Program-made: the position numbers and the translations under genes
Assembly (NCBI GenBank): GCA_016200125.1
Contig: JACQFK010000124.1
Location: 1-17,906 of the forward strand
Direction: 5' to 3'
DNA length: 17,906 nt
Origin: Planctomycetota bacterium
GTDB lineage: Bacteria > Planctomycetota > MHYJ01 > JACPRB01
Shown here: positions 2,322-6,531 of the stretch, one piece after another
How positions within the stretch are numbered: the stretch's first letter is position 1
Layout of the letters: every line of letters begins with the position of its first letter
Notes under the pieces: model-generated
Database searches by the model: none
Seen by the model: the letters and a program-made list of their open reading frames with translations, nothing else
What the model was told of the DNA's origin: nothing

Positions 2322-3632
2322 TCAGGGAATCGTGAGGGTGACCTTCTCCGACTTTCCTCCGCGGAGCAGCGTGAATTCGGCAGCCTCACCCGGCTTCTTC
2401 TCCTGGAACAGGTAGCCGAGAAGCGCGCTTTCGCCCGCAATGCCCTTCTTGCCGTCGACGTGAAGAAGCACGTCCTCCTTCTGGAACTTCTGGCCGCTCT
2501 CCTTGTTCTTGTCCTTCGCGTAGTCGGGAGGGAAGCCCTTGATCCGGAGGCCGAGGGCGTCGGGGGGAACCCCCAGCTTCTGGCGATCCTCCGGCGTCAA
2601 CGTCTCGAGGGGCTGAGTGCCGAGCAGCCGGTTGCGGATGCCCCAGACCATATTCCGCCACGTAAAATCGTCCTTCCGCCTCCATCCCGTCTCGAGCGCC
2701 AGCGTCGCCTTGGCCGCCTTGCCCCCCCGGTCGACTTCGGCCTCGAGGCTGCAGGGCTCCTTGGCGTTCTGGAGGACCCACTGAACGTCGGCGATCGACA
2801 GGATGGGCTGCCCGCCGAACTTCACGATCGTGTCGCCCTCCTTGAAGCCGCCTTTCTCCGCGGGCGAGCCGGCCTCCACCGACTTCACCCTCGCCGCGTC
2901 CTTGGGATCCAGCATGAGGCCGACGCGGCCGGGCATCGGATAGGGCCAAACCAGCGTATCGGGAACGGCTTTCTTCTCCAGCCGCAGCGACCAGAGCTCG
3001 CCGTCATGAGCCTGATGGCAGTGGACGCAGCCGCCGCGGGTGCCGTCGGCGGGGACGATGTTCTTCTTCCCCTTGAGTTCGGGGATGACTTCGGGCGTGG
3101 CCCAGACCGGCGCCGGCCCGCGTTTCCCGGCAAACTCCTGCCGGTTCCCCGGGTAGCCGGCGTGGAATTTCAACCCCAGCTCAAGCGCCTTCTTGAGCCC
3201 CTCGATCGAAATCGCGTTCGTGGTGTTCTTGTGTTCAGAGCGGCTTCCGTACCTGCCGTAGATGGTCTTGTCGGCGTTCATGAGGAAGACGGCCCAGGTG
3301 AGCTCCTGGTCGAACTGGAACAGGGAGAGATCCATCCCCCAGGCCTGGATGATGCGAACGCAGACGAACTTCTCCATGAGCTGGGCCAGCCCGGCGTCCT
3401 CGCGACCGGCAACCTGCCGGTCCATCCCTACGCAGGATTTTCAAGGCACTCACCGGAAGACGATCATCATCGGCTTGCCGGTCTTCTTAGCCTCGGCGAA
3501 GCCCGCGTCCAGGTCGTCGTAGATCCAGTCGCCCTTCACCTCGGTGTCCTTGAGGGCGGTCCGCAGCTTCTCCTTGTCCTGGGGAGCCGCGAGAATGGCA
3601 AGACCGACGACAGCGGCAAGCGCCAGTTTCAT
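2322..3632 (-). CDS. Thioredoxin-like/PDZ selenoprotein with two in-frame UGA (Sec61, Sec64)
   Basis: One continuous frame of 436 codons is interrupted only by UGA at codons 61 and 64. Read as selenocysteine, the region is VFR-U-V-P-U-K-S-C-VGMD. This places U61, U64 and C67 at the N-terminus of a thioredoxin-fold helix, after GDWIYDDLDAGFAEAKKTGK (34-53), where Trx proteins carry their redox cysteines. The order is: signal peptide (1-16, then PQD), Trx-like domain (about 30-150), a CVHCH c-type-heme-like motif (202-206), PDZ1 (about 230-312) and PDZ2 (about 355-436). The protein is probably exported and acts as a thiol/selenol oxidoreductase; substrate unknown. The ATG at 3632 follows AGGAGG (3646-3641) with 8 nt spacing. 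Both flanks of the UGAs carry the same protein: the Trx domain would be cut in half otherwise. The terminal stop is also UGA. I recall an NCBI family named Trx7/PDZ domain-containing (seleno)protein that fits; unchecked. The alternative is a doubly nonsense-mutated pseudogene. Confidence 0.85.
3404..3422 (-). promoter_or_regulatory. Candidate bacterial SECIS element
   Basis: The mRNA-sense sequence forms a perfect 7-bp stem GACCGGC/GCCGGUC closing a five-base loop AGGUU. Bacterial SECIS hairpins lie inside the coding region just after the UGA and present a G/GU-containing apical loop to SelB. Here the loop starts 25 nt after the second UGA and 34 nt after the first, both inside the 16-37 nt range I recall for bacterial SECIS models. 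The stem is built from the codons for DRQVAGR, so it is compatible with protein coding. No selA, selB or selC lies in the window. Confidence 0.72.
3441..3452 (-). other. Two recoded UGA codons (Sec64 at 3443-3441, Sec61 at 3452-3450)
   Basis: In reading order the codons are UGA GUG CCU UGA, then AAA UCC UGC, giving U-V-P-U-K-S-C. UGA is a normal stop for at least six other genes in this window, so this is local recoding and not a genome-wide code change. Confidence 0.8.
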
Positions 3633-3684
3633 AGGTTCGTCCTCCTGCGATCAACGTACCCCGGGATGCCCCGCAAAGTACGCG

Positions 3685-3746: not shown

Positions 3747-4040
3747 TTAGTGCTTTTCCTTGTCCGCGGGGAACGTGTGCCCCGCCCAGGCCTTGTCGTC
3801 GCTCTTCTCCGGGAAGAAATTCTTGTTCACCTCGGTGTAGAATTTCCACTTCTCCGGCAGCTCGTCCGCCGGGAAGATCGCCTGCACCGGGCAGGGCTCC
3901 ACGCAGGCGCCGCAGTCGATGCATTCCTCCGGGTGGATGTAGAGCATCTTGCTGCCCTCGTAGATGCAGTCCACGGGGCACGCGGGGACGCAGGCCTTAT
4001 CCTTGGTTCCGACGCAGGGTTCGGCGATCACGTAAGCCAT
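3747..4040 (-). CDS. 7Fe-type ferredoxin (3Fe-4S plus 4Fe-4S)
   Basis: This 97-residue cytosolic electron carrier starts MAYVIAEPC. Cysteines C9, C17 and C21 (followed by Pro), then C40, C43, C46 and C50 (followed by Pro), match the C-x7-C-x3-CP ... C-x2-C-x2-C-x3-CP signature of FdxA-like ferredoxins. C9, C17 and C50 would hold the 3Fe cluster, and C21, C40, C43 and C46 the 4Fe cluster. C25 is the extra cysteine usual in this family. The acidic/aromatic tail after residue 58 (LPEKWKFYTEVNKNFFPEKS) is the normal FdxA-type C-terminal helix. The gene starts 9 bp after the Rieske stop, so it is the second gene of a two-gene unit, and a terminator follows. No reductase or oxygenase lies next to it, so the partner is unknown. 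Confidence 0.93.
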   Translation of the reverse strand: MAYVIAEPCVGTKDKACVPACPVDCIYEGSKMLYIHPEECIDCGACVEPCPVQAIFPADELPEKWKFYTEVNKNFFPEKSDDKAWAGHTFPADKEKH

Positions 4041-4049
4041 GGCAGCTCC

Positions 4050-4358
4050 CTATAATCCGACCAAGACGTCCTTGCCTTCCACCTTCACCGGAAAGCAGGG
4101 GATTTTCGCGCGAGGGTTCACGGGCGACTGCCCGTTGGACACGTCGAAGACCCAGGCGTGCCAGGGGCACACGATGTTGCAGCCCTCCAGCATCCCCTCG
4201 TTCAGGGGTCCGCCCTGGTGGGGGCAGATGTTGGAGGTGGCGAAGATCTTGCCGTCCACGTTGTACAGGGCGATTTCCTGGCCGTTCACCTCGACCTTCA
4301 CGGTGCTTCCCGGCGCGACCGCATCGATGGTGCCCGCCTTCACCCAGTTGTTCGGCAT
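4050..4358 (-). CDS. Rieske-type [2Fe-2S] ferredoxin
   Basis: The 102-residue protein has the Rieske ligand pattern C45-P-H47 and C64-P-W-H67, with 16 residues between the two halves. The short intervening loop (GGPLNEGMLEGCNIV) is typical of soluble Rieske ferredoxins, not of bc1-complex proteins. There is no signal peptide or membrane anchor, so it is probably a cytosolic electron carrier for an oxygenase or reductase encoded elsewhere. The whole protein is one Rieske domain, with no NirD- or oxygenase-specific extension. Its ATG sits 7 nt after a near-perfect -10 box and has no Shine-Dalgarno, so the mRNA is probably leaderless. It is followed at 9 bp by the ferredoxin gene; the pair looks like a dedicated electron-transfer relay. 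Confidence 0.93.
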   Translation of the reverse strand: MPNNWVKAGTIDAVAPGSTVKVEVNGQEIALYNVDGKIFATSNICPHQGGPLNEGMLEGCNIVCPWHAWVFDVSNGQSPVNPRAKIPCFPVKVEGKDVLVGL

Positions 4359-4418: not shown

Positions 4419-5444
4419 CTACTTGATCCGCTTCATCTTGTTGATGCGGCCCGTCGCGTTCCAGTCCTCGACGTAGAGGTCGCCCTTCGAGTCCCAGCAG
4501 GCGCCGTGCGGCGCCGTGAATTCGCCGTCCTTCCACTTCTCGGGCGGCACGGGGTTCTTCCCGATGAGGGCCTTTTCCGAGTTCTCGCCGAGATGGGCGA
4601 TGAGCTTGTTGTCCTTGCCCAGGATCGTGATCCGGCCCTGCAGGTCGGGCACGATGATGTCGTCGCCGAAGAAGTTGAGGGTGCAGGGGTTCCGCATGCC
4701 CTCCTTGGTCTCCGTCACGAACTTGCCGTCGAGCGTGAACCACTGGAGGCGGCCGTTGGCGCGGTCGGCCACCACGACCAGCGGATCCTTGCCGCGGAGG
4801 TCGATGCACATGCCGTGCGGCGTGTTGAACTTGCCGCCGTCGCGCTCCGAGCCGTTCCAGGAGCGGATGTACTCGCCCTTCGCGTTCCACTGGTGCACCC
4901 AGGACTTGCCGTAGCCGTCGCCGACGTAGACGTCGCCGTTGGGCGCGACCGCGCAGCCCGTGGGCTTGTACTCGCCCTTGGCCTTGTAGACGCCGGACTT
5001 CTCGGGGAACGGGATGGTCAGCAGGACCTCGCCGTCCAGCGTCAGCTTGATCACCTCGCTCCGGCCGAGGCTGCAGAGCCAGAGGACTTCCTTGTCGCCT
5101 TCCTTCGCGATCTTCATCCCGTGGGCGCCCCTGAACTCCTTCCCCCAGGCCTTCACGAAGGTGCCGTCCTGCTCGAAGATCATGACGGCGTTGTCGGTGT
5201 CGGTGTTGAAGTAGGCGCGGTCCTTGGAGTCGACCCCCACGTTGCCGTGGGTGGAGCCCACGTACTTCATCCCCGCCGGGAGCTTGGCCCAGTTGGGGAT
5301 CCACTCATACTTGTGCACGCCGTCGCCGAAGATGACCTTGTCCTGGGACACGCGCTCGGCGAAGAGGCGCCCCGGCAGGAGCGCGGCGGCCGCGCCGGCC
5401 GCGCCGAACAGGCCCATGATCTCTCTGCGGGAATATTCCTTCAC
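4419..5444 (-). CDS. Tat-exported NHL-repeat beta-propeller protein
   Basis: The 341-residue protein starts with a twin-arginine signal: SRREIMGLF (5-13), a hydrophobic Ala-rich core and a site near LFA (27-29). Tat export suggests folding or cofactor loading before export. The remainder is a repeated propeller of about 50-residue units with the NHL phrase, for example GNVGVDSKDRAYFNTDTDNAVMIF, PTGCAVAPNGDVYVGDGYG, PHGMCIDLRGKDPLVVVADRANGRLQWF and APHGACWDSKGDLYVEDWN. The recurrent H-G (THG, AHG, PHG) is like 6-bladed NHL and peptidylglycine-lyase-like propellers, where His/Asp can bind metal. The family call is solid; enzymatic activity is unknown. The start is GTG at 5444, supported by GGAGGA (5457-5452) 7 nt upstream. 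A separate promoter follows its TAG stop, so it does not share a transcription unit with the Rieske gene except by readthrough. Confidence 0.85.
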   Translation of the reverse strand: MKEYSRREIMGLFGAAGAAAALLPGRLFAERVSQDKVIFGDGVHKYEWIPNWAKLPAGMKYVGSTHGNVGVDSKDRAYFNTDTDNAVMIFEQDGTFVKAWGKEFRGAHGMKIAKEGDKEVLWLCSLGRSEVIKLTLDGEVLLTIPFPEKSGVYKAKGEYKPTGCAVAPNGDVYVGDGYGKSWVHQWNAKGEYIRSWNGSERDGGKFNTPHGMCIDLRGKDPLVVVADRANGRLQWFTLDGKFVTETKEGMRNPCTLNFFGDDIIVPDLQGRITILGKDNKLIAHLGENSEKALIGKNPVPPEKWKDGEFTAPHGACWDSKGDLYVEDWNATGRINKMKRIK

Positions 5445-5571: not shown

Positions 5572-6531
5572 TCAATGGGTATGGTCGGGCCGGGGGTTCC
5601 GGATGTGCTCGATCTGCTCGCGGATGGCGGGCAACCAGGAGGATTCCGGGAAGCGCTTCGCCGCCCCCTCCAGCGCCTCCAGCGCCGGCTTGTCCTGGCC
5701 GTCCTGGTGGAGCACGAAGCCGAGCGCGAAGGTCATGTGGTCCGCCTCCCCGCTCGACGGGAAGCGCTTCAGCGCCTCCTCGAGGACGCGCGCCGCCTCG
5801 CGGTGCTTCCGTTCGACCGCCAGCGTCAGCCCCTCGGTCAGCAGCAGCCGGTCCGCGGCGGACGTCCGCCCTTCGGGGTCGAGCCTCCGGGCCTCCTCCA
5901 GGTGCTTCCGGGCCTCGAGATTCTTCCCGCGCATCACCCGGAGGCGGGCGAGCCGCTCGTGACTGGCCGCCGCCGCGCCCTCCTGTCCCGGCTTCGCCTG
6001 CTCCAGCGCCTGACGATAGCACTCCTCGGCGCGCCGCAGGCTGTCCGCCGACCGGTAGGCTTCCCCCAGCCCGTGAAGCAGGGCCGCATCGTTCGGGGAC
6101 CGGGCGAGGGCCTCACGGGCGCTCTTCACCGCGGCCAGGCCCGCCTCCGCGCGCTCCAGGAAAAGCAGGAAGGCCTTCGAGCCGGCATAGCCGTGGAGCG
6201 CGGAGATGACGTCGCCGCCGGCGTCGACCACGCAGCTGGCCAGTCCGCCCCGCCCGCCGATCGTCGCCTCGAAGAGTTCCGGCTTCGCCTCGGCGTCCAC
6301 CCGGACGCTCACGAAGCGCTCGCGGGCGGCTCGAGCGACCCCGGCGTCGGCGAAGGTCTCCTCGTCCATCGTTTTGCAGAGCGGCCGGCCGGCCAGGGTG
6401 AAGTGCAGGAGGATCAGCCGGCCCTTCTCCCGCGCCTCCGCCCGGGCCGTGTCGTAGTCCTTCCGCCAGTCGACGCCCACATCCGCCGACACGACGGGCA
6501 GCAGCCCCAGGGCGAGCATAAGCGCGGACAT
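5572..6531 (-). CDS. Thioredoxin-like domain plus TPR repeats protein, degenerate redox site
   Basis: The 319-residue protein has a short hydrophobic N-terminus (1-16, SADVG next), so it is probably exported. Residues 20-125 are a DsbD-gamma/Thioredoxin_7-like domain: VDWRKDYDTARAEAREKGR, the strand LILLHFT, then GRPLCKTMDEETF (48-60). In active relatives this is C-x-x-C-K-x-M. Here the first Cys position is Arg49 and only C52 remains. The cis-Pro position near GGLASCVVDAGG (95-106) is also not Pro. Dithiol reductase activity is therefore unlikely. From about 140 to the end there are TPR-like helix pairs, such as DAALLHGLGEAYRSADS and SHERLARLRVMRGKNLEAR. It probably works as a scaffold or chaperone. 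The ATG follows a CATAAT box at 8 nt and lacks a clear Shine-Dalgarno. It is divergent from the DUF3500 gene. Confidence 0.82.
   Translation of the reverse strand: MSALMLALGLLPVVSADVGVDWRKDYDTARAEAREKGRLILLHFTLAGRPLCKTMDEETFADAGVARAARERFVSVRVDAEAKPELFEATIGGRGGLASCVVDAGGDVISALHGYAGSKAFLLFLERAEAGLAAVKSAREALARSPNDAALLHGLGEAYRSADSLRRAEECYRQALEQAKPGQEGAAAASHERLARLRVMRGKNLEARKHLEEARRLDPEGRTSAADRLLLTEGLTLAVERKHREAARVLEEALKRFPSSGEADHMTFALGFVLHQDGQDKPALEALEGAAKRFPESSWLPAIREQIEHIRNPRPDHTH

Follow-up and report, generated by a model that had tools for sequence, protein, structure and literature searches.

The best overall explanation of a gene carried on a 17,906-nucleotide stretch of Planctomycetota DNA (hereafter, the window), judged to be highly likely, is that it encodes an exported oxidoreductase of the NF041199 family in which two in-frame UGA codons, 61 and 64, both specify selenocysteine (Sec), with a distal SECIS-type hairpin serving UGA64 and a second, proximal hairpin serving UGA61. 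The family provides a natural experiment on this point, as it offers dozens of genes that differ in whether the first site is Sec, and the proximal hairpin largely comes and goes with that residue.

The gene is read in one frame on the minus strand, from the ATG at 3632 to a stop UGA at 2322-2324, and codons 61 and 64 are the sole in-frame stops of its 436 codons (Table 1). When both UGA codons are translated as Sec, the active site becomes FR-U-V-P-U-K-S-C. This frame, its interruptions and its active site had been proposed in an earlier, sequence-only reading, together with a strong Shine-Dalgarno sequence ahead of the start, and all of them were recovered. The same reading expected ordinary gene calling to split the gene, which it does, into an ORF of 60 residues (3450-3632) and another of 367 residues (2322-3425).

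Table 1. Features of the Trx7/PDZ gene and its mRNA hairpins in the window.
Feature	Position	Strand	Basis or remark
Trx7/PDZ selenoprotein gene, 436 codons through two UGA, terminal UGA	2322..3632	-	reading frame; NF041199 match, 380 bits
Shine-Dalgarno-like AGGAGG, ATG 8 nt downstream	3641..3646	-	sequence
Thioredoxin_7 domain, residues 36-119	3276..3527	-	profile; by fold, similar to Trx domains of the DsbD-C-terminal-like and AGR types
Predicted Sec codon 61 (UGA), a Cys codon in CxxU and CxxC relatives	3450..3452	-	translation, alignment
Predicted Sec codon 64 (UGA), a Cys codon in CxxC relatives	3441..3443	-	translation, alignment
Cys67 codon, third redox residue, inside the proximal hairpin	3432..3434	-	alignment
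Proximal hairpin AUCCU-GCGUA-GGGAU, UxxU feature	3424..3438	-	loop 16 nt after UGA61
Distal hairpin GACCGGC-AGGTT-GCCGGTC	3404..3422	-	distance to loop 25 nt from UGA64, 34 nt from UGA61
CVHCH, residues 202-206, heme c-like CxxCH	3015..3029	-	alignment
PDZ domain 1, residues 244-312	2697..2903	-	profile and fold match
PDZ-like domain 2, residues 340-434 approximately, with inferred borders	2331..2615	-	PDZ_2 in two stretches; model elements 347-435; some HtrA fold-match rows reach residue 434

The predicted protein scores 380 bits on NF041199 (Trx7/PDZ (seleno)protein, NCBIfam), whose cut-off is 300, with residues 36-434 aligned to positions 2-389 of the 390-position model. Since this match is full length and above the cut-off, the family is not new: the double-Sec protein of the sequence-only reading stands, but it belongs to an already named selenoprotein family. 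Thioredoxin_7 (PF13899, 4.4e-12) and PDZ (PF13180, 6.2e-17) are both detected in it, and all 41 matches from a sequence search against known structures lie within residues 239-395, that is, in the PDZ part. The hydrophobic N-terminus is a likely signal peptide. Taken with the UxxUxxC site, the CxxCH motif and the two PDZ domains, the sequence suggests a selenol/thiol-disulfide exchanger that is exported and holds on to protein substrates.

Relatives were sought in 392 genomes of the Planctomycetota, the phylum of G001 (the genome of the nearest relative with DNA), drawn evenly and with the best four candidates per genome scored. A match at E <= 1e-30 was found in 123 genomes, and one over the NF041199 cut-off in 109. 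The sample analyzed comprises the 150 matches listed (at least 150 exist), from 119 of the 123 genomes; G006, G073, G119 and G181, with weaker matches, were left out. These 150 matches divide into 66 UxxU, 32 CxxU, 52 CxxC and no UxxC, so that UxxU is the commonest UGA form among the matches listed (66 of 98). Sec at the first site thus occurs only together with Sec at the second. The third redox residue is Cys in 140 of the 150, and CxxCH is present in all 150, independently of the Sec state. A heme or metal site at CxxCH, in the same protein as the Sec active site, is a candidate reading of this motif; no cytochrome c appears among the 50 fold-match rows shown, a comparison made with CxxCH as part of a larger model and uninformative on this point.

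In-frame UGA codons were counted over each tblastn match and onward to the next stop. All 166 of those found in the 150 listed matches and the window fall at sites 61 and 64, where the other matches have Cys, and the placement at both sites is therefore non-random. An apparent extra UGA (X) outside the two sites in L092 proved to be an ambiguous base. A third TGA is listed for the partial match L153 (G082), beyond the counted stretch. A search at the protein level returned 1300 homologues with E <= 0.001 among 7997 candidates scored; within the best 120, which are those listed, the motif is visible in 56. Of these, 52 have Cys in both positions, the pattern that the sequence-only reading had named as a check, and the other 4 have Thr or Ser in the second.

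The division of the gene into two pieces by a bare gene caller is also what a decayed gene would give, its UGA codons being nonsense mutations or sequencing errors. This explanation is very improbable, given that 66 of the 150 listed matches elsewhere have UGA at exactly both sites and that the RNA structure described below is conserved. It is further opposed by the coding signal, which is kept across the interruptions: third-position GC is 0.87 before the UGAs and 0.87 behind them, and the differences from L117, the neighbor of the window on the tree described below (support 95), favor third codon positions behind the UGAs (160 of 318; over codons 20-60, 12 of 28).

Database records are of interest for another explanation, in which UGA is a plain stop and a 60-residue peptide is followed by a restart at the internal ATG (3425), yielding a 367-residue PDZ protein. 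Calls of 366-367 residues are indeed common: among the best 120 of the 1300 homologues, all 14 with at least 74% identity are of this size and start with MDRQVAG, at the internal Met of the window, and 19 of the 120 begin in this way. Such records, which are proteins and not DNA, are as expected from gene callers starting behind the UGAs, and double-Sec reading would explain these truncated database versions. Moreover, neither the active site nor the hydrophobic N-terminal stretch would be part of the restart product, and each Cys relative is one full-length protein. L001, the nearest relative with DNA and part of the Planctomycetota MAG nzgw515 (G001; 64% identity, L001/L117), has RUVPUKSC with both UGAs, and where the window has its internal ATG it has ATC. 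A restart is thus as improbable as decay. In this relative the AGGTT hairpin is kept, with its stem altered by paired changes. G001 contains five paralogues with two TGA codons each, four of them over the cut-off, distributed over contig C198, where L001 lies, and three more places; two of them stand in tandem on C198 (305-1492 and 1708-2898).

A genome-wide reassignment of UGA to Trp, Gly or Cys is hardly credible, and the least probable of the explanations considered. UGA is also a genuine stop in the window, terminating 4 of 12 checked ORFs, the Trx7/PDZ gene included, and its replacement of Cys is confined to two fixed sites, accompanied by a SECIS-type hairpin.

The machinery for Sec insertion was searched for in the relatives. 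G001 has SelB (342 bits) and SelD (315 bits), a SelA fragment below the cut-off at a contig start, and a marginal tRNA-Sec candidate (49 bits; the cut-off is 47, which 5 of 14 control genomes also exceed). Across the sample, SelB (E <= 1e-60) is found in 65 of the 75 genomes with a UGA form vs 13 of the 44 with CxxC only (Fisher p 3e-10, uncorrected for relatedness). The SelB matches of the 10 UGA-form genomes outside this threshold are all below the family cut-off; the SelA search, which covered these 10 and G001, found SelA over its cut-off in 9 of the 10. The SelD gene of G001 (L045, G001:C434:5938-6852) has one in-frame TGA and may itself encode a selenoprotein. Double-Sec decoding, as first proposed for this gene, is supported by the Cys/Cys homologues, the UGA/UGA relatives, the hairpin at a fixed place and the association with SelB. 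On these comparisons, Sec at both sites is considered very probable.

The 7-bp SECIS-like hairpin named by the sequence-only reading is present downstream of the two UGAs and folds at -13.2 kcal/mol. According to PMC13188914, the bSECIS model places the loop 16-37 nt behind the UGA, with a loop of 3-9, a stem of 4-16, a G in the first two loop bases and an MFE of -7.5 or lower. For UGA64, the distal hairpin of the window fits this model in energy and in loop spacing (25 nt). Common to the UGA forms, 19-37 nt behind UGA64, is a stem built around (A)GGU or AGUU. Over eight pairs, 85.6% of the cells are paired in UxxU, 62.9% in CxxU and 21.4% in CxxC; over seven pairs, the values are 90.1% for UxxU and 68.8% for CxxU. 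Because some CxxU genes are in a shifted register, their eight-pair count is unchanged (62.9%) when slid by -1.

Folding energy separates the forms more clearly than shape does. An MFE of -6 or better at the distal hairpin is found in 97 of 99 UGA forms vs 5 of 52 CxxC, and the mean MFE over nt 18-40 is -11.0 kcal/mol in UxxU, -10.4 in CxxU and -2.7 in CxxC. Against a null preserving each gene's own codon use, the distal place gives z 4.7 for UxxU and 7.0 for CxxU. The shape rules of the bSECIS model (loop, stem, G and spacing) are a weak test for UGA64, since they are passed not only by 67/67 UxxU and 32/32 CxxU genes but also by 35/52 CxxC genes; fixed place and energy are stronger evidence. 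In the UxxU alignment, pair 35/45 occurs as GC, AU, CG, UA and GU, and covariation over both helices (0.256) exceeds that of shuffles (0.157, sd 0.010; 0/500 as high) and of all slid versions, while further pair types are not above shuffles (67/500 as high). The CxxU alignment also covaries (0.193 vs 0.131, sd 0.013; 0/500 as high), with neither further pair types nor pairs changed on both sides above shuffles (343 and 453 of 500). RNAalifold finds the distal stem alone on the UxxU alignment and predicts no consensus stem on the CxxU alignment. Taken together, these sequence comparisons support the distal hairpin as a SECIS-type element whose place is fixed among the UGA forms and which CxxC genes do not share.

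While the distal hairpin of the sequence-only reading held up, its description of a single hairpin did not, as a second one had been missed. This proximal stem lies within the 18 nt separating UGA64 from the distal hairpin, with its loop mostly on or beside the Cys67 codon. In the window it has 5 bp and a GCGUA loop at a spacing of 16 nt, and folds at -4.7 kcal/mol, where the bSECIS model asks for -7.5 or lower. An MFE of -3 kcal/mol or better at this place is found in 59 of 67 UxxU genes (window included) vs 5 of 32 CxxU genes, and is absent in the other 8 of the 67. After thinning, the counts are 53/61 vs 3/29 at 70% identity and 31/34 vs 1/17 at 50% identity. Mean stem length compared with a synonymous null is 5.27/3.74 (sd 0.13) in UxxU, 3.38/3.56 in CxxU and 3.17/3.18 in CxxC, and the own-codon-use null gives z 9.8, -1.2 and 1.0, respectively. 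When 23 offsets were scanned in the UxxU genes, the peak fell at the proximal place (z 9.8), with z 8.0 at the overlapping offset of -3 and |z| <= 3.6 outside both hairpins. The third residue is not Cys in six UxxU genes (L078, L113, L118, L119, L126 and L132), five of which keep a stem of at least 4 bp; this points to a constraint on the RNA rather than on the protein.

The details of the proximal hairpin are variable. Columns 17/25 hold AU in 23, CG in 19 and no pair in 23 of the 65 distinct UxxU rows; the register sum is 18 in 27 of 64, and one register explains 63.5% of the cells. Because registers vary, RNAalifold gives no proximal consensus on the UxxU alignment. An energy of -7.5 kcal/mol is reached by 9 of the 67 proximal hairpins of UxxU genes, and G followed by G or U occurs in 10 of 64 proximal loops. 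The bSECIS rules for loop, stem, G and spacing, applied to codon 61, are passed by 44/67 UxxU genes (null 23, sd 3.3), 7/32 CxxU genes (null 10.0) and 16/52 CxxC genes (null 11.4, sd 2.5); given these nulls and the CxxU and CxxC counts, these rules alone are weakly specific. The proximal pattern was noticed and tested on one and the same gene set. Class-level searches around G001, G177 and G121 (23, 17 and 20 genomes) yielded no new matching genome, so that there is no independent replication, all matching genomes being already in the first sample.

The tree was built from 151 rows (the 150 listed matches and the window) using residues 80 onward, and hence without the motif and the hairpins. 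It requires 20 state changes, with UxxU and CxxU intermingled; CxxC needs only 4. Supported branches provide 10 independent UxxU/CxxU pairs; on average, presence of the proximal hairpin (MFE -3 or better) agrees with that of the first UGA in 7.1 of them and runs contrary to it in 0.9. By itself, a sign test on these pairs is suggestive but not significant (median p 0.07, range 0.008-0.375); with a stem of at least 4 as the trait, the averages are 5.7 vs 0.8 and the median p 0.125. For the distal hairpin there are only 4 independent pairs (3.5 vs 0.0), too few for a sign test. Four simple rate models were also compared on this quick, midpoint-rooted tree. The best-fitting one (AIC 147.7) places UxxU at the root with 0.98, and has the first site switching both ways and no return from CxxC. 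A stepwise model fits worse (AIC 156.6) and leaves the root open (UxxU 0.58).

In the preferred reading, both UGA61 and UGA64 would be read as Sec by the SelB route, creating a U-x-x-U-x-x-C site on the thioredoxin domain, and the distal hairpin would be the SECIS for UGA64. With UGA61 in the decoding site, the proximal hairpin could form just ahead of the ribosome and serve this codon, as a separate SECIS or else through a shortening or pausing that would let the distal SECIS serve UGA61 too. By the time UGA64 is being decoded, this hairpin would be inside the mRNA channel and is expected to be melted. To our knowledge, how a bacterial ribosome inserts Sec at UGAs as close as nine bases is an open question, and a puzzle because SelB must be recruited twice. 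From the gene and its relatives we infer export, a redox partner and a division of labor between the hairpins.

A simpler arrangement would be one shared SECIS, in which both UGAs depend on the distal hairpin alone, the proximal one being unrelated to Sec insertion and acting for instance in pausing or in the timing of folding. The distal loop, at 34-35 nt from UGA61, is within the 16-37 nt that PMC13188914 gives as the bSECIS range, and in the CxxU genes the distal hairpin is present but the proximal one mostly is not. However, the proximal hairpin tracks the first UGA and not the family, being mostly missing where position 61 is Cys, which makes a shared SECIS with an unrelated proximal stem unlikely. 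That the proximal hairpin is usually present with Sec61 and usually absent with Cys61 is the argument for its serving UGA61, and the comparison of gene sequences makes a functional tie to the first UGA likely. Whether it would be a SECIS of its own or a helper of the distal SECIS is about even, given its modest energies and the few loops with G followed by G or U.

The most specific form of the preferred reading, one UGA with one hairpin, would be a tandem pair of in-frame SECIS elements, of which the proximal one, built around the third redox codon, is dedicated to UGA61 and is gained and lost with its Sec. This is put forward tentatively, as a real possibility somewhat short of an even chance. 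Part of it would be that the double-Sec state is old in the phylum and that the first Sec was switched repeatedly. If true, a two-Sec site evolves by adding an RNA module and not by sharing one.

Upstream on the same strand, the window encodes an FdxA-type ferredoxin (3747-4040), a Rieske ferredoxin (4050-4358) and an NHL-repeat protein (4419-5444), which, to judge by their sequences, are possible redox partners. A second Thioredoxin_7/DsbH-like protein with TPR repeats (5572-6531) has a single Cys (GRPLCKT) where CxxC is usual. Neighbors were compared by matching ORFs all against all over 73 loci with short flanks, three of which are the SelB/SelD loci of G001. Among the 14 largest ORF groups shown from this comparison, the window is in 2 and absent from the other 12; these two are taken to be the Trx7/PDZ gene itself and its antisense frame.

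The family and its selenoprotein nature are already known. NF041199 is tabulated as CxxU with one Sec in Table 1 of PMC13188914, and PMC9312934 lists as CxxU a 'PDZ domain-containing protein' with Thioredoxin_7, taken to be the same family. A row of PMC2398784 named 'putative secreted serine protease MucD' may also belong here, which is a guess. A full-text literature search, with partial texts of PMC13188914, PMC9312934, PMC2398784 and PMC4807772 among its sources, found neither the two-Sec form nor the proximal hairpin of NF041199; this is no proof of absence in print, and both the UxxU form and its linked second hairpin are apparently undescribed within the literature searched. A family tabulated as single-Sec is thus mostly double-Sec among the sampled UGA forms. 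The question of one SECIS or two becomes testable in it, and the two-hairpin arrangement offers a signature for finding double-Sec genes.

Like NF041199 as tabulated, the protein of the window combines Thioredoxin_7 and PDZ domains with Sec in the active-site motif, but it has UxxU in place of CxxU, two Sec in place of one, and two hairpins. In PMC13188914, a Prx-like oxidoreductase, the metal-binding protein NF041115 and an FmdB-type protein share UxxU with two Sec while belonging to other families, and the thioredoxin listed there as UxxC shows the reverse of the NF041199 pattern, in which UxxC is absent from the 150 listed matches. Unlike DsbD C-terminal-like and AGR2-type thioredoxin domains, NF041199 has Sec at both CxxC sites. 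PDZ domains are held in common with HtrA; in NF041199 they are joined to a thioredoxin domain, without the HtrA protease domain. Finally, whereas the bSECIS model, as set out in PMC13188914, is a single stem-loop behind one UGA, the window presents two hairpins in a row behind two UGAs 9 nt apart.
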